A stretch of DNA of 64,000 nucleotides, taken from assembly GCA_900659855.1 (NCBI GenBank), contig CAACVI010000049.1, positions 62,001 through 126,000 on the forward strand, read 5' to 3'. This stretch comes from Candidatus Desulfarcum epimagneticum. Its GTDB lineage: Bacteria > Desulfobacterota > Desulfobacteria > Desulfobacterales > CR-1. Made by a program: the position numbers and the translations under genes. The notes under the pieces were generated by a model. It saw only the letters and a program-made list of their open reading frames with translations. It made no database searches and was not told where the DNA came from. Shown piece after piece: positions 50,787 to 59,683 of the stretch. Each line of letters starts with the position of its first letter. The first letter of the stretch is position 1.

Positions 50787-50873
50787 GCCGAAGTGGTGGA
50801 ATCTGGTAGACACGCTATCTTGAGGGGGTAGTGGGCCACGCCCGTGCGGGTTCAAGTCCCGCCTTCGGCACCA
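50787..50873 (+). tRNA. tRNA-Leu(GAG)
   Basis: The acceptor GCCGAAG pairs with CTTCGGC, followed by discriminator A and an encoded CCA (50871-50873). The anticodon stem CTATC/GGTAG encloses loop TTGAGGG with anticodon GAG. A long variable arm (GGGCCACGCCC region) marks a class II tRNA, and GGTTCAAGTCC is the T loop. Leu(GAG) agrees with its known orthologues. Confidence 0.95.
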
Positions 50874-50900: not shown

Positions 50901-50953
50901 CGAAGTTTGCCGGACCACTCCCGCGCGGGTTCAAGTCCCGCCTTCGACGCCAT
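50901..50953 (+). pseudogene. Shrunken duplicate of tRNA-Leu
   Basis: The tract CGAAGT near 50901 is followed directly by CCGGACCACTCCCGCGCGGG, TTCAAGTCCCGCCTTCG and ACGCCA. It aligns with the 5' acceptor end plus the variable arm, T arm and 3' acceptor of the intact tRNA 27 nt upstream, but the D and anticodon arms are missing. It cannot be a functional tRNA. Such a 3' copy is what an integrase crossover or tandem duplication leaves behind. Confidence 0.75.
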
Positions 50954-51527
50954 TTTTTTCATGCCTTCTTGGCATTTCGCATTTCAAACGCGTCATTTTT
51001 TTTAATGACCGCCATCCATTGATGACACCGGCCATGAATAAAAATGTAGGCAGTCGAATAGAACTGTGCATGAGATGTGGAAACAACAAACCGGTCATTG
51101 GCGCCGAGGCAGCGGCCGCTATTGAGCCGATCCATAACCAGAATCTCAGCATAATTCATAAGGGTTCTTCGAAACCATTTTTCTTCTAAAAAGCCCCTGA
51201 GCCTTATCATAACGTTTTTTATTCAACGTCTTGTGACTAAAACCCGAACATCAGCGGCTTGATTTTCAAGGTGGCTTTTTTTCGGTATTCCTCGCCGAAA
51301 TTTTTTTATTTCATTTTTTTCTTGCACATCAAAAAATAAAGGGGCATTATTTTTTTGTCTGGCCAAAAAACAGGGCTCCGCTGAAGAGCGACCCGATCGC
51401 CGAGGCGAACGAGGGAGTGTTATATGATTCCTATGGAAGCATTCCTCAAGGCACAAATGCAGAAAACAAGACGCCTTGACTGGAAAGCGCGATTTGTGTG
51501 ACAAAACTACAAAAAGGAGCGAAAAAA
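50954..51527. other. Gene-poor spacer at the left edge of the cohesin island
   Basis: About 570 bases without a gene I can support. A minus-strand frame at 50959-51210 (83 codons, starting MIRLRGFLEEKWFRR) has no recognisable domain or ribosome-binding site and may be a decayed gene. Composition is clearly more AT-rich than the core genome from here on. No integrase or inverted-repeat ends were seen. Confidence 0.5.
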
Positions 51528-51968
51528 GTGAAGAAAAAAACAGCGCTATTAATTTTAGCTTTTATCTTGTTGGGGGTATTCGCTCAGAGTTGCGAGAAAA
51601 AAAAAAGCGGCATAACCATAAAAAAAAATGTAAATGACCAAAATATCACTTTCATTGTTTCGGTAAAGAACGCGCCGAATAAAGTGCATGCTCTCGGATT
51701 TGAGGTTATTTACGATCCTTTGGCATTAAAATATGTTCGATATAAAGAAGGAAAATCTGTGCGCGAATTTCAAATGTTTGGAGCGCATAAAGTCAAAGAA
51801 GGCCTGGTTCGCGTGGGCGGCTTTGCTGCGGGAGAAAAATCCATAAAAAAAGACGCAAGTGGAGAACTCGTTATTCTGGAATTCGAATGGATCAACAGTG
51901 AACAAAAAGCCGGAATAACATTGGCGAAACTTTTGGACGATATTTCCGGATGGAACCCCCAGGAATAA
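51528..51968 (+). CDS. Cohesin-like module protein, lipoprotein-type anchor
   Basis: A 146-residue secreted protein that is one cohesin-like module. A basic start and hydrophobic helix lead to FAQSC (Cys22), an imperfect lipobox, so it may be lipid-anchored. The module has the signature shared by the next three genes: NAPNKVHALGFEVIYDP, a KYVRYKEG strand, LVRVGGFAAGE, SGELVILEFEW and the end LLDDISGW. I start at GTG 51528 because AAGGAG lies 9 nt upstream; GTG 51498 would hide the signal sequence. It heads the island, 12 nt before the next cohesin gene. Confidence 0.75.
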   Translation: MKKKTALLILAFILLGVFAQSCEKKKSGITIKKNVNDQNITFIVSVKNAPNKVHALGFEVIYDPLALKYVRYKEGKSVREFQMFGAHKVKEGLVRVGGFAAGEKSIKKDASGELVILEFEWINSEQKAGITLAKLLDDISGWNPQE

Positions 51969-51980
51969 ACAAGGGCTAAA

Positions 51981-53078
51981 ATGTTTTCCCGTAAAAAAAA
52001 GAATATTTTTTTATGCCTGGTTGTCGGCCTTTCCTTATTTTTAATTAAAAATGGCCACGCCAACTCTCAAAATTCATCATTGGAAGCTATAAGGCAATCT
52101 TATTACGGCGGCGGCCAGGTGACCTATGAAGTTTGTGTAAAAAATTACCCCAAAAGCATAGACTCTCTGGGCATGGATGTGGTCTATAATCCCGCTAATT
52201 TGACTTTAAGGAGGTATGAACGGGGCTCTTTGACAACGAATTTTGATGTTTTCGCCGTGACAAACAATGCGGAGGCGGGCGTTTTAAGAATCGGCGGGAT
52301 CGAAGCGGGGAATCATATAATCTCAAAAGGATCCAGCGGAAGCATCGTCATACTGGATTTTGATGTTGTCGGAAATTTGGAGCCTGACACAAAACTTAGA
52401 TTTCAAGGCTTGAAAGACGATCTGAATCCCAAAAGCAGAACCTATGACCCGAAGAGGGAGGAGCCGGAAAAAGTCGAGTCGCCCTCCCCTGCTTCAGGCA
52501 GCGACAATTCTGGCATAAACGAAGGCGATCCTCAAAAAAGCATAGATGACAATGGAAGCGCGGAGAGTTCATATCGGAGCTATACGCGAAATAAAGGAAA
52601 CGGAGCGAATGAACAGCAACTCGAAAGTTCGGAGGCTTTTCCTGAAACGGAAGTTCAACAAACTGAATCCGGATCCGGAGCTTCAGCGCAAACTCGCGGG
52701 GAACAGAAAGCGGACAGATCGAATATCGCAACTTTCAAAAAAACCGATCATGATGGAAATATTTTCACGCCGGGAATATCCGGTCCTTCCTCAAGCGGCG
52801 GGGAAAAATCCTCAAAAAAAATTTGGATAACAACCAATCGGACAAAAGAGACGAGACCCAAAAAACATGTCCATAATGCGACATTAAAAGACAGTCCCCG
52901 AAATATTAAAAAAAACACAGCCGCCGCCTTCGAGGAATTGGCGTCAAATATACAACAGATAAAAAACAGCGTAAACACACTTAAAATTATTGTCCTTTTC
53001 CTTTGTTTTATCATCATGTCCGGTTTTGTTGGAATGTTCCTTTTGATAAAACCAATCATCAACCGAGAGGCAAAATAA
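51981..53078 (+). CDS. Cohesin-like module protein with C-terminal transmembrane anchor
   Basis: A 365-residue protein in four parts. A signal peptide (residues about 8-27, NIFLCLVVGLSLFLIKNGHA) is followed by a cohesin-like module to about residue 150 (NYPKSIDSLGMDVVYNP, VLRIGGIEAG, SGSIVILDFDV, LKDDLNP). Then comes a long hydrophilic Ser/Glu/Asn-rich linker (about 150-300), and finally a coiled-coil-like segment and one membrane helix (about 338-358, IIVLFLCFIIMSGFVGMFLLI) with a short basic tail. It should display the module away from a membrane on a flexible stalk. It follows the first cohesin gene by 12 nt. Confidence 0.78.
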   Translation: MFSRKKKNIFLCLVVGLSLFLIKNGHANSQNSSLEAIRQSYYGGGQVTYEVCVKNYPKSIDSLGMDVVYNPANLTLRRYERGSLTTNFDVFAVTNNAEAGVLRIGGIEAGNHIISKGSSGSIVILDFDVVGNLEPDTKLRFQGLKDDLNPKSRTYDPKREEPEKVESPSPASGSDNSGINEGDPQKSIDDNGSAESSYRSYTRNKGNGANEQQLESSEAFPETEVQQTESGSGASAQTRGEQKADRSNIATFKKTDHDGNIFTPGISGPSSSGGEKSSKKIWITTNRTKETRPKKHVHNATLKDSPRNIKKNTAAAFEELASNIQQIKNSVNTLKIIVLFLCFIIMSGFVGMFLLIKPIINREAK

Positions 53079-53151
53079 CGGCGACCTCTCGATGTTTTCA
53101 GTCATAACTCTTTGGGTTTTAAAAAACACGGATTAAAAGGAGGGTGAAAAA

Positions 53152-54030
53152 GTGGAATCAACTCAGAAAGGTCGGCGCAAATTAGGATCATTTTTAATGA
53201 CCGGATGTATTGTTCTTTTTTTTGCTGTCGCTGTAAACTTTTTGCTTATCGGAACAAATGTTTCGACGGTTATGGCCATAGTCACTAGCTGTATCGAGTA
53301 TGACACAGGCAAAATTGACATTAAAGGCGTCAGAGGACACAGTGGCAGCCCAGTCACCATTCCCGTCAGAATTCGGAGATTGGATGCGTCGGATGCGTCG
53401 AATGATGTAAAAACGCTTGGCTTTGATGTCAATTTCGATGCCAACACCTTAACATACAACGGTTTTGATGTGACAGGAACTGTAACGAAAAACTTTCAAA
53501 CGGCCGAAGCCAATGAAATTTCAACAGGACTTCTAAGGTTTGGGGGCTACGATTCGGACGGGGGGGTTTTTCGTGACTCAAGCTGGGACGCAAGCGGAGA
53601 TGGCTGGATTCCAAGTGGAGACGCGACTGCGGACGCAAGCAGTGACACAAGTTGGGTTTCAAATTGGGACGCGACCGGGGACGTTCCAGGTGCGGTTGTT
53701 TATTTGAACTTTAATATTAACGCCGGTGGAGACACCAGTGGAGACACCGCGTTGACTTTGACCGGCCTTGTGGATGATATTCGAGACTGGCCCAGCTCTG
53801 GCGGCTGTCTTGTTTACGGCGGCTGTTCGGGCGATATCAACGGAGACGGCCGATGGACGCCAAGAGACGCTTTAAGCATTTTTGAAAAATACATGAATAT
53901 TTGCCCCACATCGGCGGGCGAAGACTGCGCCACTGTATGCGGAGACGTGGATGTCGCAGGGGGCGTGACTCCCGCCGACGCTCTTTGTGTTTTCAACAGA
54001 TACCTGGGCAAATCAAGCTGTCTGGATTGA
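53152..54030 (+). CDS. Secreted cohesin-dockerin protein
   Basis: A 292-residue protein joining both halves of a cohesin-dockerin pair. After a signal helix (about residues 13-35) the cohesin-like module has VKTLGFDVNFD, LLRFGGYDSD, VVYLNFNIN and LVDDIRDWP; a roughly 40-residue Trp/Asp/Ser/Gly-rich insert with SGD and DAS repeats interrupts it. The C-terminal 70 residues are a type I-like dockerin: calcium loop 1 is GDINGDGRWTPRDAL with all DxNxDG ligands, and loop 2 is GDVDVAGGVTPADAL, where one ligand is Ala; two Cys-rich linkers flank them. The GTG start has AAAGGAGG upstream. It is the only soluble, potentially bridging member of the set. Confidence 0.85.
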   Translation: MESTQKGRRKLGSFLMTGCIVLFFAVAVNFLLIGTNVSTVMAIVTSCIEYDTGKIDIKGVRGHSGSPVTIPVRIRRLDASDASNDVKTLGFDVNFDANTLTYNGFDVTGTVTKNFQTAEANEISTGLLRFGGYDSDGGVFRDSSWDASGDGWIPSGDATADASSDTSWVSNWDATGDVPGAVVYLNFNINAGGDTSGDTALTLTGLVDDIRDWPSSGGCLVYGGCSGDINGDGRWTPRDALSIFEKYMNICPTSAGEDCATVCGDVDVAGGVTPADALCVFNRYLGKSSCLD

Positions 54031-54056
54031 TTTTTTTTAGAGGGGAATAAAAACAG

Positions 54057-54085
54057 CCGGGCGGGAAACCGCCCGGTTTAAATCT
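54057..54085 (+). terminator. Hairpin terminator after the cohesin-dockerin gene
   Basis: CCGGGCGG (54057-54064) and CCGCCCGG (54069-54076) form an 8-bp GC stem with a GAAA tetraloop, followed by TTTAAATCTT. It would terminate or attenuate transcription before the large anchor gene, so the latter may have its own promoter or be made in smaller amounts. Confidence 0.75.
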
Positions 54086-54120
54086 TATCTCGCACATAAA
54101 AAAATAAGGAATACGTAAAA

Positions 54121-56631
54121 ATGCTTATCAAAAAGCGCATAATTGTCCTTATTGTCATTTGCGCGACGCTTGCATTTTGCCAAACATGCTTTTCCGAGGA
54201 CCTGGAGCTTACAACCGAACAAACTGACGAAACTTTTACTGTCACAATTTCCATGAACGGCGCCCCAAACAATGTGAAAGCGTTTGGTTTCGACGTCTGG
54301 TATTGCGAAGACAGCCTGGAATACCAAAAATATGAAAAAGGAGGTTTAACACAGCAATTTGACGCCGGCGGCGATGACTACATGTTTGAATCCAACAGAA
54401 TAGGCCAGCATATCAGAGTGGGCGGTTATAATGCAAGCAGGCCGATCGCAAGCGGAACATCCGGGGCCATCGTAAAGCTTTTTTTCAATATAACCGCTCA
54501 CACTGCCGAGTGCGACATTTCGCTTCACAATCTGACAGATGACATATCCCAGTGGTCTTATCAAAACTATCGATTCATACATACTCCCAGCAATCTCACA
54601 TGGTATAAAGATTCGGATGGAGACAAATATTCGGAGGGAACCAGGCAAAGCTCCGGGACACAACCGGCGGGTTATTATTTATCGTCAGATTTGATTGCCA
54701 CGTCAGGCGATTGCGACGACAACAACGCGTCCGTAAATCCCGCCGCCGCTGAAAACTGTGACAATGACATTGATGACAACTGCGATGGCATCATAGCAGT
54801 CTGCCCTTCAATTGACGCGGAGGATAAAGTCGCCGGAAAAGCCATACCCTCGACCGGGAATTATACCATAGTCAATTCAGGGATGACAACCAATGATGTG
54901 ACCGTAAGATTTTCAGGAACCTTATATCGCGACAAAAACAGAAATGGGAAAATTGACAGCGGGACGGATGAAGACCTTGGCGCAATAACCGACCCAGCAA
55001 AAATCAAGCTGTCCCCGGGACCTTATCTTGTAGAGTGGACAGCGCAAAACCCAAATGGAGACACAGCGTCTGAAATTCAACAGATTAATGTGATTCCGCA
55101 AGTTATGTTTAACCGCAAAAAACAGGTGGCGCACTTAACGGGCACGCCGCAAACCATCTCTATAGGAATAAAAACAAATGGCGAGGCGGCGGCATACCCG
55201 GTGACCGTTCCTTATACTGTCGCCTCCGATCCAAACAATCCCGCCATCAATCCCGATGATCATAATGCGCCCGCCGGAAACATTCAAATTGGCGAAGATT
55301 CGTCGTCAGATTCAATTTCTTTTGATTTTAACGCCACGGGCAGCTTAAATAGCGGCAAAAAAAGGGGCGTTGTCATTTTTAATATCAACGCCGATTCGCT
55401 CTCCAATGCGGTGACAGGGGGAACAGCTTCACATGAAGTGGTTCTGATCGATATCAATAAGGAAAATCTTCCCCCGAAGGTTTTGATTAAATTAAAAAAA
55501 ACAGGGGAGTCAAGCTACTCTGACATATCGAAAATAACAGTCGCCCAAGGAATTAATATTGATGTAAAGCTGGAAACTTCCGACCCCAATGGAGGAGACA
55601 CGGTCGCGGTGGAATGGAATTGTTCGCGCCATATAGATAATTGCCCTGTTGATGGCGCGGCGGAATGGACCATTGGCACCAGCTCGCTTCCGGAAGGTTT
55701 ATATACCATAGAAGCAAAGGCGACGGATGATAACAGCGCCAATTCCAACAAAGGCCCTTTGACTCAAAACAATGTTTGTCTGCTTAAAGTGGTCGCTTCC
55801 GGGACCGCTTTGGTGGACGACAGCACCGGCAATGGAATTTTTGATGATCAGTATGATAGCGATGGCGACGGCATTTTCGACGATCAGGATGACGATATAG
55901 ACGGGGACGGCATATTGAATAATGTTGACAATGTCAACGATGTCGCCAACATTCTGCGGGCCCCAAAAAATGCGAAAAAACAACAGACCCTGTCCGCCGA
56001 ATCCGGTCTTACTTTAAGTTTAGGCAAGTATGCGTTTAAAGCCGGCAAAGGAGCGCTAATAGACCTGACTGATATTGATGACGGAGGGGGAACGGATATA
56101 GGCGAATATGATGATATAATAGATGTTCTCGATTTCGAGATAGATGGGCTTGCTGAAACAGGCGAAAAAGCGAAATTGGTCTTGCCTTTATCAAAAGCCA
56201 CTGGAACCAATACAGTTTATCGTAAATTTTCCGATCAAACGGGGTGGGCAACCTTTGTGTCTGACGCCGACAATAAGATATATACGGCCGTGACCGAAGA
56301 TCCGGAGGGGATATGCCCTGATGCGGGGAATTCTTTATATACGGAAGTTGACAATGCAACCGGCGTTATGCCGTCGGGAATGTATTGCCTGCAATTGGAA
56401 ATAAAAGATGGCGGGCCATACGACACTGATGGGGCTGAAAATGGCAAAATCGCCGATCCTGGGGCTGTGGCAAACAATTCCAATGTTATTTCTGGTGGCG
56501 GAGGCGGAGGTGGCGGAGGTGGCGGTTGCAGTCTGAATAGAAACGTAAATTTTTCTCCAACACTTTTATTAATGTTTTTGATATCCATTATTTATATAAC
56601 AAAACACGCATTGTTAAAAATGAAAAAATGA
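54121..56631 (+). CDS. Large surface protein: cohesin-like module, MopE-type motif, TSP3-like repeats, choice-of-anchor U-like domain, Gly-Cys-TM sorting tail
   Basis: 836 residues. Signal peptide to about 25; cohesin-like module about 27-155 (GAPNNVKAFGFDVWYC, IRVGGYNAS, LTDDISQW); a MopE-type metal-binding motif about 160-230 (WYKDSDGDKYSEG, SGDCDDNNASVNPAAAE, CDNDIDDNCDG); beta-rich middle; calcium-type repeats near 570-600 (DSDGDGIFDDQDDDIDGDG); a region like choice-of-anchor U (GEKAKLVLPLSK, DGGPYDTDGAENGKIADPG). The end is Gly 792-802, Cys803, a hydrophobic helix (about 811-827) and a Lys-rich tail. This is the layout of JDVT-CTERM-type sorting signals, where cleavage near the Gly-Cys and re-anchoring are expected. 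The next gene overlaps its stop by 4 nt and encodes a matching protease. Confidence 0.82.
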   Translation: MLIKKRIIVLIVICATLAFCQTCFSEDLELTTEQTDETFTVTISMNGAPNNVKAFGFDVWYCEDSLEYQKYEKGGLTQQFDAGGDDYMFESNRIGQHIRVGGYNASRPIASGTSGAIVKLFFNITAHTAECDISLHNLTDDISQWSYQNYRFIHTPSNLTWYKDSDGDKYSEGTRQSSGTQPAGYYLSSDLIATSGDCDDNNASVNPAAAENCDNDIDDNCDGIIAVCPSIDAEDKVAGKAIPSTGNYTIVNSGMTTNDVTVRFSGTLYRDKNRNGKIDSGTDEDLGAITDPAKIKLSPGPYLVEWTAQNPNGDTASEIQQINVIPQVMFNRKKQVAHLTGTPQTISIGIKTNGEAAAYPVTVPYTVASDPNNPAINPDDHNAPAGNIQIGEDSSSDSISFDFNATGSLNSGKKRGVVIFNINADSLSNAVTGGTASHEVVLIDINKENLPPKVLIKLKKTGESSYSDISKITVAQGINIDVKLETSDPNGGDTVAVEWNCSRHIDNCPVDGAAEWTIGTSSLPEGLYTIEAKATDDNSANSNKGPLTQNNVCLLKVVASGTALVDDSTGNGIFDDQYDSDGDGIFDDQDDDIDGDGILNNVDNVNDVANILRAPKNAKKQQTLSAESGLTLSLGKYAFKAGKGALIDLTDIDDGGGTDIGEYDDIIDVLDFEIDGLAETGEKAKLVLPLSKATGTNTVYRKFSDQTGWATFVSDADNKIYTAVTEDPEGICPDAGNSLYTEVDNATGVMPSGMYCLQLEIKDGGPYDTDGAENGKIADPGAVANNSNVISGGGGGGGGGGGCSLNRNVNFSPTLLLMFLISIIYITKHALLKMKK

Positions 56632-57071
56632 AATTTTCCTTTCTTTTCTATATGTTTCGTGATCGCAATTTTCAATCGGCCCTCATGATGGGCCCAGTAT
56701 TTTGCGCGGGATGGTTTTGGGTGACTCAGCCTGAGCTAACTTTTCAGCATGTGGTATATCCCCAAAAATTGTTGTTTTTGGTTATAATTTATCCTGTTAT
56801 AGAAGAGATTGTATTCCGTGGCGTTTTACAGGAAAATTTTTCCCAGATTACAAAAAAAACGCGCCTGACGAATAAAGTGTCTGACGCAAATCTTTTCACA
56901 AGCGCTATTTTTGCATGTTTGCATCTCTTTTCCCATTCACTTCTCTGGTCTTTGGCAACGTTTATTCCTTCCGTCATCTTTGGATATTTTAAGGACAAAT
57001 ACAATAGTATCATTCCCTGTGTTGTTTTGCATCTTTTTTACAATTTGAGTTATTTTTCACTTTTTTCATAG
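56628..57071 (+). CDS. mrtJ: CPBP-family glutamic-type intramembrane protease (JDVT-CTERM system, MrtJ-like)
   Basis: A small 147-residue polytopic membrane protein with the three motifs of CPBP/Abi intramembrane proteases: EEIVFRG (Glu59-Glu60, Arg64), FACLH (His99) and HLFYN (His135, Asn139). All predicted catalytic residues are present. Its size is that of the dedicated proteases that process JDVT-CTERM C-terminal signals. Its ATG overlaps the stop of the large surface protein by 4 nt (ATGA), so substrate and enzyme are coupled. The motifs are seen directly; the subtype is inferred from neighbour and length, and an Abi-type bacteriocin-immunity role is the alternative. Confidence 0.82.
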   Translation: MKFSFLFYMFRDRNFQSALMMGPVFCAGWFWVTQPELTFQHVVYPQKLLFLVIIYPVIEEIVFRGVLQENFSQITKKTRLTNKVSDANLFTSAIFACLHLFSHSLLWSLATFIPSVIFGYFKDKYNSIIPCVVLHLFYNLSYFSLFS

Positions 57072-57088
57072 GGCGCTGACTACAATAG

Positions 57089-57240
57089 TGATAAACTCGT
57101 AAAAAAGCACGGATGGCTAAGTCAAAAAATTCGATATACAAAGCGTAGTGGTTATTTTTAATTGAGGCAATACATTTAGTATGCCTCAATTAAAAATAAG
57201 CGCTGCAACACCGTAGATCGGATTTTTTACGACGCCATCA
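57089..57240 (+). repeat. Fold-back repeat, copy C
   Basis: TGATAAACTCGTAAAAAA, then an outer arm AAAAAATTCGATATACAA, the inner palindrome TTATTTTTAATTGAGGCAAT / ATGCCTCAATTAAAAATAA and the right arm GTAGATCGGATTTTTTACGA. It lies 17 nt after the protease stop and closes the cohesin island. The rest of the gap to 57380 holds nothing I can identify. Confidence 0.9.
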
Positions 57241-57380: not shown

Positions 57381-58607
57381 TTATCCCTGCCGCCGGGCTT
57401 CCAGCATTTCAGCGAACGCCTCCAGCCGGGTTTTCAACTGCCCCTCGGCGAAATTCCGGGAATCCACGCAGTCCACCTCCAGGTTTAAAACCGGGACCCC
57501 GATTTCTTTCAACCCTTCACCGATGAGCCCCCTCATGCCTGTGCCCTGGCGGCAGCCGAAATGGCAGGGATTGACGGCGCCGTCCACCTGGTATTCCCGG
57601 ACCATCTTTTGCAGATGGGCCACGCGGCGAACGCCCCATCCGTTGAAGGGGATGGAGATGGCCCTTTGGGCAAAACCCGGGAAGGGGTCGTCGGGGTCGA
57701 TGGGGTCCCAGGTGATGTCATTAAGCTCGTCGGCCACAATCACGGCCCCGAGTTCGTTTTCCAGAAATTTGATCAGGGGATTTTTATACTGAATCCGGTT
57801 TTGAATCCAGAGCAGACGGAGCCTTTCCTCAGCCGCCCCGGATGTTTTGTTTTCCACTTTTTTTGAAAAATCGTCACAATAGGCGCCGGCCAGGTCCATG
57901 CCCGCGTCGGTTCCCAGGAAAAGGGCCGCCACGATTCCGAAATTGGCCAGGTCCATGCTGTTTGCCGGAGAAGGAACCGACTGGGCCAGGCGGTACACAT
58001 CCGCCATGATTTTCCGGGCCTGGTTGGTTTTTTCCACCGCTTTGGAAAGGGCGGCCGGATCAAGGGGCCGGCCCGTGTGGTCGGAGACAAAGGCGACCAT
58101 CTCGCGCATCTGGTCCGCCAGGTACCTCACGCCTTCCGGGGACGGCTCCTGGGGCACATTTAAGACAAACAGGTCTTTTTTGAAATCCCGGGCCAGGTTC
58201 TCCATGACCGCCACTCCGCCGGAGCAGGGACAGGTGGTGGCGATGAGAAAGTCGGGCACGGGCATGACGCCCTTTTCGGCGGCCCCCAGGATGGCCCGGT
58301 GATACCCGCAGGCGTCGCCCCCGAATCCCTGGTTCTCGGCCGCCTGCATGAAGTCCCCGGCCGTGCCTGTGGAGGCCAGCATGGCGCCCACGAACTCCAC
58401 GAAACACGAGACCACGCCCATGGCGCTCAAAAGATCAAAGGGCGCCGCCACCCCGCACCACGCCACCGTGTCCTTTCCCCCGTAAAGACGGGCGCCCAGG
58501 CGGGCCACCTCCAGGGCGTAAACCTTGCGGGGGGTTTTCGATTCGGGATTAAGGGCGATTTTTTGCTCAATCCCGGACGCCAGGGAGTCAAAGTAGTCTT
58601 TCATCAT
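57381..58607 (-). CDS. 2-hydroxyacyl-CoA dehydratase-family protein, subunit 1
   Basis: A 408-residue member of the HgdB/FldC/BcrB family of ATP-activated Fe-S enzymes that also includes double-cubane reductases. Conserved pieces are CGVAAPFDLLSAMG, GDACGYHRAILG, TTCPCSGG, and the C-terminal NPCHFGCRQGTGM followed by PVLNLEVDCVDSRNF. The cysteines are probable cluster ligands. It follows a second family member by 20 nt, so a heterodimer is likely. No HgdC-type activase is nearby. Substrate unknown; benzoyl-CoA or 2-hydroxyglutaryl-CoA roles are not supported specifically. Confidence 0.85.
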   Translation of the reverse strand: MMKDYFDSLASGIEQKIALNPESKTPRKVYALEVARLGARLYGGKDTVAWCGVAAPFDLLSAMGVVSCFVEFVGAMLASTGTAGDFMQAAENQGFGGDACGYHRAILGAAEKGVMPVPDFLIATTCPCSGGVAVMENLARDFKKDLFVLNVPQEPSPEGVRYLADQMREMVAFVSDHTGRPLDPAALSKAVEKTNQARKIMADVYRLAQSVPSPANSMDLANFGIVAALFLGTDAGMDLAGAYCDDFSKKVENKTSGAAEERLRLLWIQNRIQYKNPLIKFLENELGAVIVADELNDITWDPIDPDDPFPGFAQRAISIPFNGWGVRRVAHLQKMVREYQVDGAVNPCHFGCRQGTGMRGLIGEGLKEIGVPVLNLEVDCVDSRNFAEGQLKTRLEAFAEMLEARRQG

Positions 58608-58627
58608 GTCGGAGCGTCTCCTTTTTG

Positions 58628-59683
58628 TTATCTCAACATTTCAACAAACGCCTCAATGCGCGTCCGGTGCTGCTCCGCCGATCTTAAGGAGCAGTCGCCT
58701 TCCAGAAGAAGCAGGGGAAAACCTTCTTCTTTCATGCGTTTTCGGATGATGGGCAGGCGGTCGATGTACGGATCGCAGAATTTCAGCGTGTGGCCGATCA
58801 CGGCTTCGGCGCCGCATTCTTTGGCCCCGTCCGCTGTCTGGTCGGCGATGGAGCCGGGATTTTCAGGAAAAAAGGTTCTCGGGCAGGGGGTCCGGCTCAA
58901 CAGCCCTTTGGCCAGCCGGACATGGACATCCTCCCCCGGGTTTTCCATGTCAATGGGGTTGAACATCCGGGCGCCGGTGCAAAGATCGTCCCCCACGATT
59001 TTAAGGCCGCACGATTCGAAAAACGCCAGCGCCCCCGGGTCGGGCATCACGTTGCCAAACAGAAACACCCGGGGCGTGTCTTTGTCCGGCGCCGCCGGTT
59101 CGGCCGTTTGAAGGATTTTTTCGATCTCATTCACGCTGTGGTCCATGGGCGCTGAAAAGGCCAGGTTCACGATCTCCTGGAGCTTTCCGGCGCCGCCTTT
59201 GATTTCCCCGGCCCGCAGTTTTCGGGCCGCTTTGTCGATCAGGCGGCTCAGATGGTTGAAACGCCCGACCGCGTCCATGATTTGGTCGTCGGAGACAGGC
59301 GCGCCCGACCATTGGGACAGCTCGGCCGACAGCCTTTTGATTTCCCCGGCGAAAAAGGTCACGGCCAGAGGATCCGCCGTGGCGGGCATGTCCAGAAGGA
59401 TGAGCCGGTCATCGGGCCGGGCGTGGCGCCAGGCGTCGGCCAGCCGGCGCATGGCGTCGCAGCTGTTCATCAGAACCATGCCGGCGATCTCCGGCATGGC
59501 GTCGGCAAGGCCGATGTCCAGAACTTTTTTCACATGGGGGCATAAATTGTCGTGGAGGCGGCCCCCGGCCTGATCCGGGAAATCCCCCATGGGCAATATC
59601 CGATAAGGGGAAAATCCGGCCGCGTCGATGACGGGCAGGGGGGTGTGGGCGCAGGTGAAGGCGATTTTTTTTCTTTCATCCAT
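58628..59683 (-). CDS. 2-hydroxyacyl-CoA dehydratase-family protein, subunit 2
   Basis: A 351-residue paralogue of the following gene's product. It starts KKIAFTCAHTPLPVIDAAGF with the first cluster Cys, then LMNSCDAMRRLADAWR, FLFGNVMPDPGAL, HTLKFCDPY and the end LLLLEGDCSLRSAEQHRTRIEAF. Two related subunits in tandem are the norm for this enzyme class. It lies 50 nt downstream of the candidate selenoprotein gene, in the same direction. Confidence 0.84.
   Translation of the reverse strand: MDERKKIAFTCAHTPLPVIDAAGFSPYRILPMGDFPDQAGGRLHDNLCPHVKKVLDIGLADAMPEIAGMVLMNSCDAMRRLADAWRHARPDDRLILLDMPATADPLAVTFFAGEIKRLSAELSQWSGAPVSDDQIMDAVGRFNHLSRLIDKAARKLRAGEIKGGAGKLQEIVNLAFSAPMDHSVNEIEKILQTAEPAAPDKDTPRVFLFGNVMPDPGALAFFESCGLKIVGDDLCTGARMFNPIDMENPGEDVHVRLAKGLLSRTPCPRTFFPENPGSIADQTADGAKECGAEAVIGHTLKFCDPYIDRLPIIRKRMKEEGFPLLLLEGDCSLRSAEQHRTRIEAFVEMLR

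Follow-up and report, generated by a model that had tools for sequence, protein, structure and literature searches.

Reports of noncellulosomal cohesins and dockerins from across the tree of life go back years, and the roles of these modules are little understood. A cluster in Candidatus Desulfarcum epimagneticum, whose gene content suggests a place among relatives of sulfate reducers, poses the question on a small scale: what might cohesins and a dockerin assemble in a bacterium that has no cellulosome? The cluster lies near the end of the window, the 64,000-nucleotide stretch of DNA analyzed here. Its five genes, P1 to P4 and the CPBP gene P5, stand where the first-pass annotation had placed them. 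They and two upstream features are as follows.

50787-50873, forward strand: tRNA-Leu(GAG), upstream of the low-GC cluster
50912-50959, forward strand: 48-nt, 88% copy of the 3' part of the tRNA-Leu, about 39 bases after the tRNA; possible integration scar
51528-51968, forward strand: P1, short secreted cohesin protein with a lipobox-like VFAQS/C, putative lipoprotein; cohesin module 51606-51965
51981-53078, forward strand: P2, signal peptide, cohesin 52083-52433, polar linker of about 180 residues, C-terminal transmembrane (TM) helix 52986-53048, basic tail
53152-54030, forward strand: P3, signal peptide, cohesin 53290-53805, 7-residue linker, dockerin 53818-54027
54121-56631, forward strand: P4, signal peptide, cohesin 54196-54564, MopE-like metal motif 54709-54795
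Within P4, forward strand: C-terminal part with choice-of-anchor U domain 56119-56472 and JDVT-CTERM, Cys codon 56527-56529
56628-57071, forward strand: P5, MrtJ, CPBP-family glutamic intramembrane protease of the JDVT-CTERM system

P1 starts with GTG, eight bases downstream of an AGGAG at 51515-51519, and a gap of 12 bases separates P1 from P2. P4 and P5 overlap by 4 nt (ATGA). A GC-only 8-bp hairpin in the P3–P4 gap (54057-54076) suggests that P4 and MrtJ may form a separate transcription unit. Directly 3' of MrtJ, at 57147-57204, is a 23-nt inverted repeat, 91% complementary with a 12-nt loop, that is terminator- or element-like. Two neighboring minus-strand genes at 57381-59683 resemble, on a reading of the sequence only, subunits of 2-hydroxyacyl-CoA dehydratase/benzoyl-CoA reductase.

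Four cohesins and one dockerin

Each of the four successive secreted proteins (51528-56631) carries one cohesin. Specifically, P1 and P2 score 31.8 and 26.7 bits against Pfam Cohesin PF00963, over its cut-off of 24.1 bits, and P3 and P4 lie just under it at 22.1 and 22.7 bits (1.4-2 bits short; E 1e-4). A whole-genome Pfam search recovers three of the four modules, and in that search the P4 cohesin reaches 24.7 bits, above the cut-off. The motifs LGF/M-D/E-V, R-x-GG and L-x-DD-I/L are common to the four modules, and the P3 cohesin carries an insert rich in D, S and T. A P1-P4 profile gives weak but correct cohesin matches among PDB sequences (E 4e-4). Relatives with the same modules mostly exceed the Pfam cohesin cut-off, and some exceed the dockerin cut-off too. 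The P1 module is predicted to fold as a type I cohesin: its AlphaFold2 model (pLDDT 81, from an alignment of the four window sequences only) has cohesins as nearly all of its best Foldseek matches, and a DALI-like aligner fits it to 5nrm with Z 13.8 and rmsd 2.2 over 111 residues. A structure model for P3 was poor (pLDDT 52, 4-row alignment) and was set aside. Pfam, the module profile and the P1 fold together uphold the first-pass annotation, which had described a cohesin-like module shared by four secreted proteins; the non-cohesin fold that it had named as contrary evidence did not appear for the P1 module.

The P3 dockerin (53818-54027, forward strand) belongs to a class with TPxDAL in both loops. 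Loop 1 (DINGDGRWTPRD) is a canonical DxNxDGxxxxxD, and loop 2 (DVDVAGGVTPAD) lacks the position-5 ligand. The earlier description of this dockerin as complete was right about its presence and its first loop and slightly generous about its second. P3 scores 21.2 bits against Dockerin type I PF00404, 1.7 bits under the cut-off of 22.9, which three of seven scanned relatives exceed. With a custom dockerin profile the P3 dockerin scores 121 bits, and against PDB sequences it finds 2ccl_B/1ohz_B at E 0.04-0.15. P3 has no cargo domain, unlike most relatives' cohesin–dockerin proteins, which have large N-terminal parts.

The genome (3.26 Mb, 52 contigs, 99.7% complete) permits a count of possible partners. 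The four-module profile finds exactly four cohesins, P1-P4. Searches with the Pfam profile, with P3's own dockerin and with an 11-sequence class profile all find the P3 dockerin alone, so we rejected dockerin cargo elsewhere in the genome and, with it, the earlier idea that the cluster displays dockerin proteins encoded elsewhere. With no dockerin-bearing cargo in the genome, a cohesin here can have an internal partner only in the P3 dockerin. A class search of this genome found no member of a second, more divergent dockerin-like class (IGxEE). In the genomes G458, G543 and G460, this second class, of EF-hand type with DLxDAI...IGxEExIxIL, occurs in 67-85 copies per genome and is also fused to cohesins in clusters. 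Finally, a Pfam scan of the five proteins found no glycoside hydrolase (GH) or carbohydrate-binding module (CBM) domain. A cellulosome was rejected on the grounds that there is one cohesin per protein, no CBM or GH domain and, in the genome, no dockerin-bearing enzyme, which agrees with the non-cellulosomal character first assigned to the cluster.

Anchors and a sorting protease

The cohesin proteins were originally thought to differ in their attachment, and the candidate anchors bear this out. The P1 lipobox, VFAQS/C, is non-canonical and matches the general lipoprotein pattern. P2 has a C-terminal TM helix (hydrophobicity 2.83); this helix implies an inner-membrane anchor, and part of the system may therefore be periplasmic. 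P4 ends in Gly11-Cys-TM-basic, which scores 28.4 bits as JDVT-CTERM (NCBIfam, cut-off 27) and 34.5 in a genome-wide search, where it is the sole JDVT match in the genome. The choice-of-anchor U domain of P4 is also over its NCBIfam cut-off.

P5 scores 106.7 bits as MrtJ against an NCBIfam cut-off of 75, and its motifs EExxxR, H99 and HxxxN are intact in the alignment. The MrtJ equivalog adjoins its single JDVT-CTERM target, with the ATGA overlap, as expected of the dedicated sorting protease that the first-pass annotation had seen overlapping the last gene. Above the cut-off, MrtJ occurs once in this genome, in 1 of 389 genomes of the order and in 2 of 395 genomes of the phylum. MrtJ-like matches in 128 of the 389 order genomes were rejected as other CPBP proteases; all but the window's own are below the cut-off. 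The phylum sample contains one more MrtJ that clears the cut-off, in G098; near it is a JDVT-like protein, and a search of that protein found no cohesin. A contig scan for MrtJ with narrow peptide patterns returned weakly related CPBP proteins only and has no bearing on distribution.

How such a tail may work is indicated by Myxococcus, in which the MYXO-CTERM route has been studied for MrtX: conserved-cysteine-dependent cleavage and surface anchoring have been shown, a lipid on the Cys is proposed, and export goes through the type II system (PMC11980579). By analogy, P4 is expected to take the MYXO-CTERM route, and MrtJ is predicted to cleave P4. The type II secretin GspD is present in the genome.

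Related clusters in the order and phylum

Searched across 291 genomes of the order, the four-module profile finds related cohesins in 13 besides this one (E down to 6e-32), often clustered, and three gene types recur. The first consists of short cohesin proteins of 150-200 residues, often lipoproteins, with the lipobox clear in G491 and G370. The second has a cohesin, a linker and a C-terminal TM helix; found in nine genomes including the window's, it is the most widespread anchored type. The third is a fused cohesin–dockerin with a linker of 5-15 residues (14 proteins in 10 genomes), the dockerin usually at the very C-terminus. All three stand side by side in four genomes, namely the window's own (G000), G454, G491 and G370. 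G454, G491 and G519 each have a single dockerin of the P3 class and none of the second class. Among strong dockerins of the P3 class, 16 of 18 lie within cohesin-bearing ORFs, and the three strongest dockerins outside the order, from other families of the phylum (G071, G184 and G209), again belong to or adjoin cohesin genes. Seen across relatives, the conserved tandem suggests that these dockerins naturally pair with a neighboring cohesin, not with an enzyme.

In a tree of 44 cohesin modules, the tandem cohesins group together in a clade of 12 rows (support 85/85), separate from the anchored cohesins. The tandem label changes three times over the 44 tips, several labels are scattered and support is moderate. 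The short and TM types cluster partly across genomes.

The tails vary. A P4 relative in G414 has a cohesin and choice-of-anchor U, but its C-terminus is GGGSGGCFISASFN. A G592 cohesin protein has CFI-box-CTERM, and a G184 cohesin has an XrtH-like tail that scores under the cut-off. The P4-like proteins of G414 and G491 were considered as JDVT and rejected: they have Gly-rich Cys tails with no same-frame JDVT-like TM segment after the Cys. Among the order relatives surveyed, JDVT/MrtJ accompanies the related cluster in this genome only. That relatives share the core and differ in their anchors indicates that the core is conserved and the anchoring chemistry exchanged, JDVT/MrtJ being this genome's version. 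Recurrence across the order looks like that of a real, largely undescribed assembly system. Two large cohesin proteins (L129:8329-10017 and L137:6852-8207) end in GGGSGGCFISASFN and GGGDSGLFGCFLNQLWQ, and in neither is the Cys followed by a TM helix; these are possible examples of other Cys-based C-terminal tails.

A proposed scaffold, its rivals and its known counterparts

The modules, genome counts, anchors and protease, together with the tandem and anchored types conserved in relatives, are legible in the DNA and invite a mechanism. We propose that the cluster encodes a self-contained, non-cellulosomal cohesin–dockerin scaffold on the envelope, made of anchored cohesins and a P3 chain, and we put our confidence in this proposal at about even. 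The notion is that P1 (lipoprotein), P2 (C-terminal membrane helix) and P4 (JDVT-CTERM) would be three differently anchored cohesin receptors. P4 would be cut by MrtJ, tethered through a lipid attached to its invariant Cys and exported along the type II route, as for MYXO-CTERM. P3 would be a soluble adaptor, its dockerin plugging into an anchored cohesin. The free cohesin of a docked P3 could then take the dockerin of the next P3, giving a polar chain outward from any anchor. The first-pass annotation had P3 bridging anchored cohesins, which its composition contradicts: every anchored protein (P1, P2 and P4) offers a cohesin, so a P3 molecule, with a single dockerin beside its single cohesin, is unable to join two anchors. 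Capping an anchor or chaining outward are the possible roles left to P3, assuming canonical one-to-one pairing. From this arrangement we infer that the dockerin binds these cohesins, that chains grow, that the system lies on the surface and that it serves in adhesion or as a matrix. Against the scaffold reading stand the P3 loop 2, short of one Ca ligand, the moderate tree support and the cargo-free P3; against a purely surface system stands the P2 helix, which would put the P2 cohesin in the periplasm.

We speculate further, and tentatively enough that we would sooner doubt it than rely on it, that the product is a cargo-free, self-polymerizing filament with three anchors, one of them myxosortase-installed. 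More generally, tandem surface fibers may occur phylum-wide, with anchors (lipoprotein, TM helix, JDVT, CFI-box, XrtH-like) swapped between species.

The P2 helix opens a different reading, in which P2, in the inner membrane with its long flexible linker, and P1, as an outer-membrane lipoprotein, keep P3 inside the periplasm, and the cohesin–dockerin pair stiffens or spaces the envelope and does not decorate the surface. The helix and basic tail imply an inner-membrane anchor, and the TM type is the commonest anchored type (nine genomes). Such a periplasmic tether is nevertheless unlikely: P1 and P2 both offer cohesins and one P3 cannot join them, the P4 signal is of the surface-leading kind (PMC11980579), and a type II secretin is encoded in the genome. 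Alternatively, the anchored cohesins might mainly bind another organism's dockerins, or P3 a partner's cohesins. Partner recognition has been proposed for syntrophic sulfate reducers, whose cohesin/dockerin proteins are described in the main text of PMC10553843 as adhesins that are conserved and, in certain partnerships, expressed at high levels. It has also been proposed for methane-oxidizing archaea, and these archaeal partners carry many cohesin/dockerin proteins (PMC9012536). The four-to-one ratio of cohesins to the sole dockerin fits this reading. Yet the strong P3-class dockerins of relatives nearly all belong to or adjoin cohesin genes, a pattern that points to a partner within the same genome, and a syntrophic lifestyle is not established for this organism; we consider such an adhesin distinctly unlikely here.

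The origin of the cluster bears on a further alternative. At a GC of 0.445, the cluster is the lowest 5.5 kb of the window (mean 0.556, sd 0.035) and lies downstream of the tRNA-Leu and of the copy of the tRNA's 3' part; no adjacent integrase was identified. Horizontal acquisition is likely. A larger system might have been taken up at the tRNA and lost its cargo, leaving a partly decayed remnant with little function, and the cargo-free P3 and degenerate second dockerin loop fit that history. We regard such decay as quite improbable: each of the five reading frames is open and has a good start, the motifs of MrtJ and its overlap with P4 are intact, and a single P3-class dockerin is also kept in G454, G491 and G519.

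The scaffold that we favor has counterparts among known systems. In Archaeoglobus fulgidus, the cohesin of ORF2376 is reported to bind the dockerin of ORF2375 strongly and specifically; this too is a tiny system of neighboring ORFs in an organism without a cellulosome (PMC9705933). The P1 model matches the A. fulgidus structure 2xdh with Z 12.3. That pair is archaeal and has fewer parts than the window cluster, and we know of no sorting protease of the MrtJ kind associated with it. Adaptor scaffoldins of cellulosomes, such as R. flavefaciens ScaC, combine a single cohesin with a single dockerin. P3 shares this pair of modules and could lengthen a chain in the same way; here, in contrast, there is no multi-cohesin scaffoldin, enzyme or carbohydrate-binding module.

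Among sulfate reducers, the adhesins of HotSeep-1, Seep-SRB1g and some Seep-SRB2 are similar in having adjacent cohesin and dockerin proteins, proposed to be non-cellulosomal in the main text of PMC10553843. That main text gives no gene-by-gene anchors, conserved tandem or JDVT/MrtJ, whereas the present genome has a closed inventory of four cohesins and one dockerin. The two-gene JDVT-CTERM/MrtJ system (Haft 2024), described in PMC11980579 as sporadic in beta- and gamma-proteobacteria, pairs one target with one adjacent MrtJ, as here, where both models score over cut-off. The difference is that the target, P4, carries a cohesin and lies within a cohesin cluster; the system thus gains a target with a nameable binding module. 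Because the four cohesins and one dockerin all lie in one cluster, the question of their role could be tested by four binding measurements. Cohesin/dockerin adhesins in sulfate reducers and JDVT/MrtJ are each already known, and their combination is new. New, too, as far as the literature shows, are the closed four-to-one census, the conserved tandem, the exchange of anchors round a constant core and the link of a cohesin to JDVT/MrtJ.
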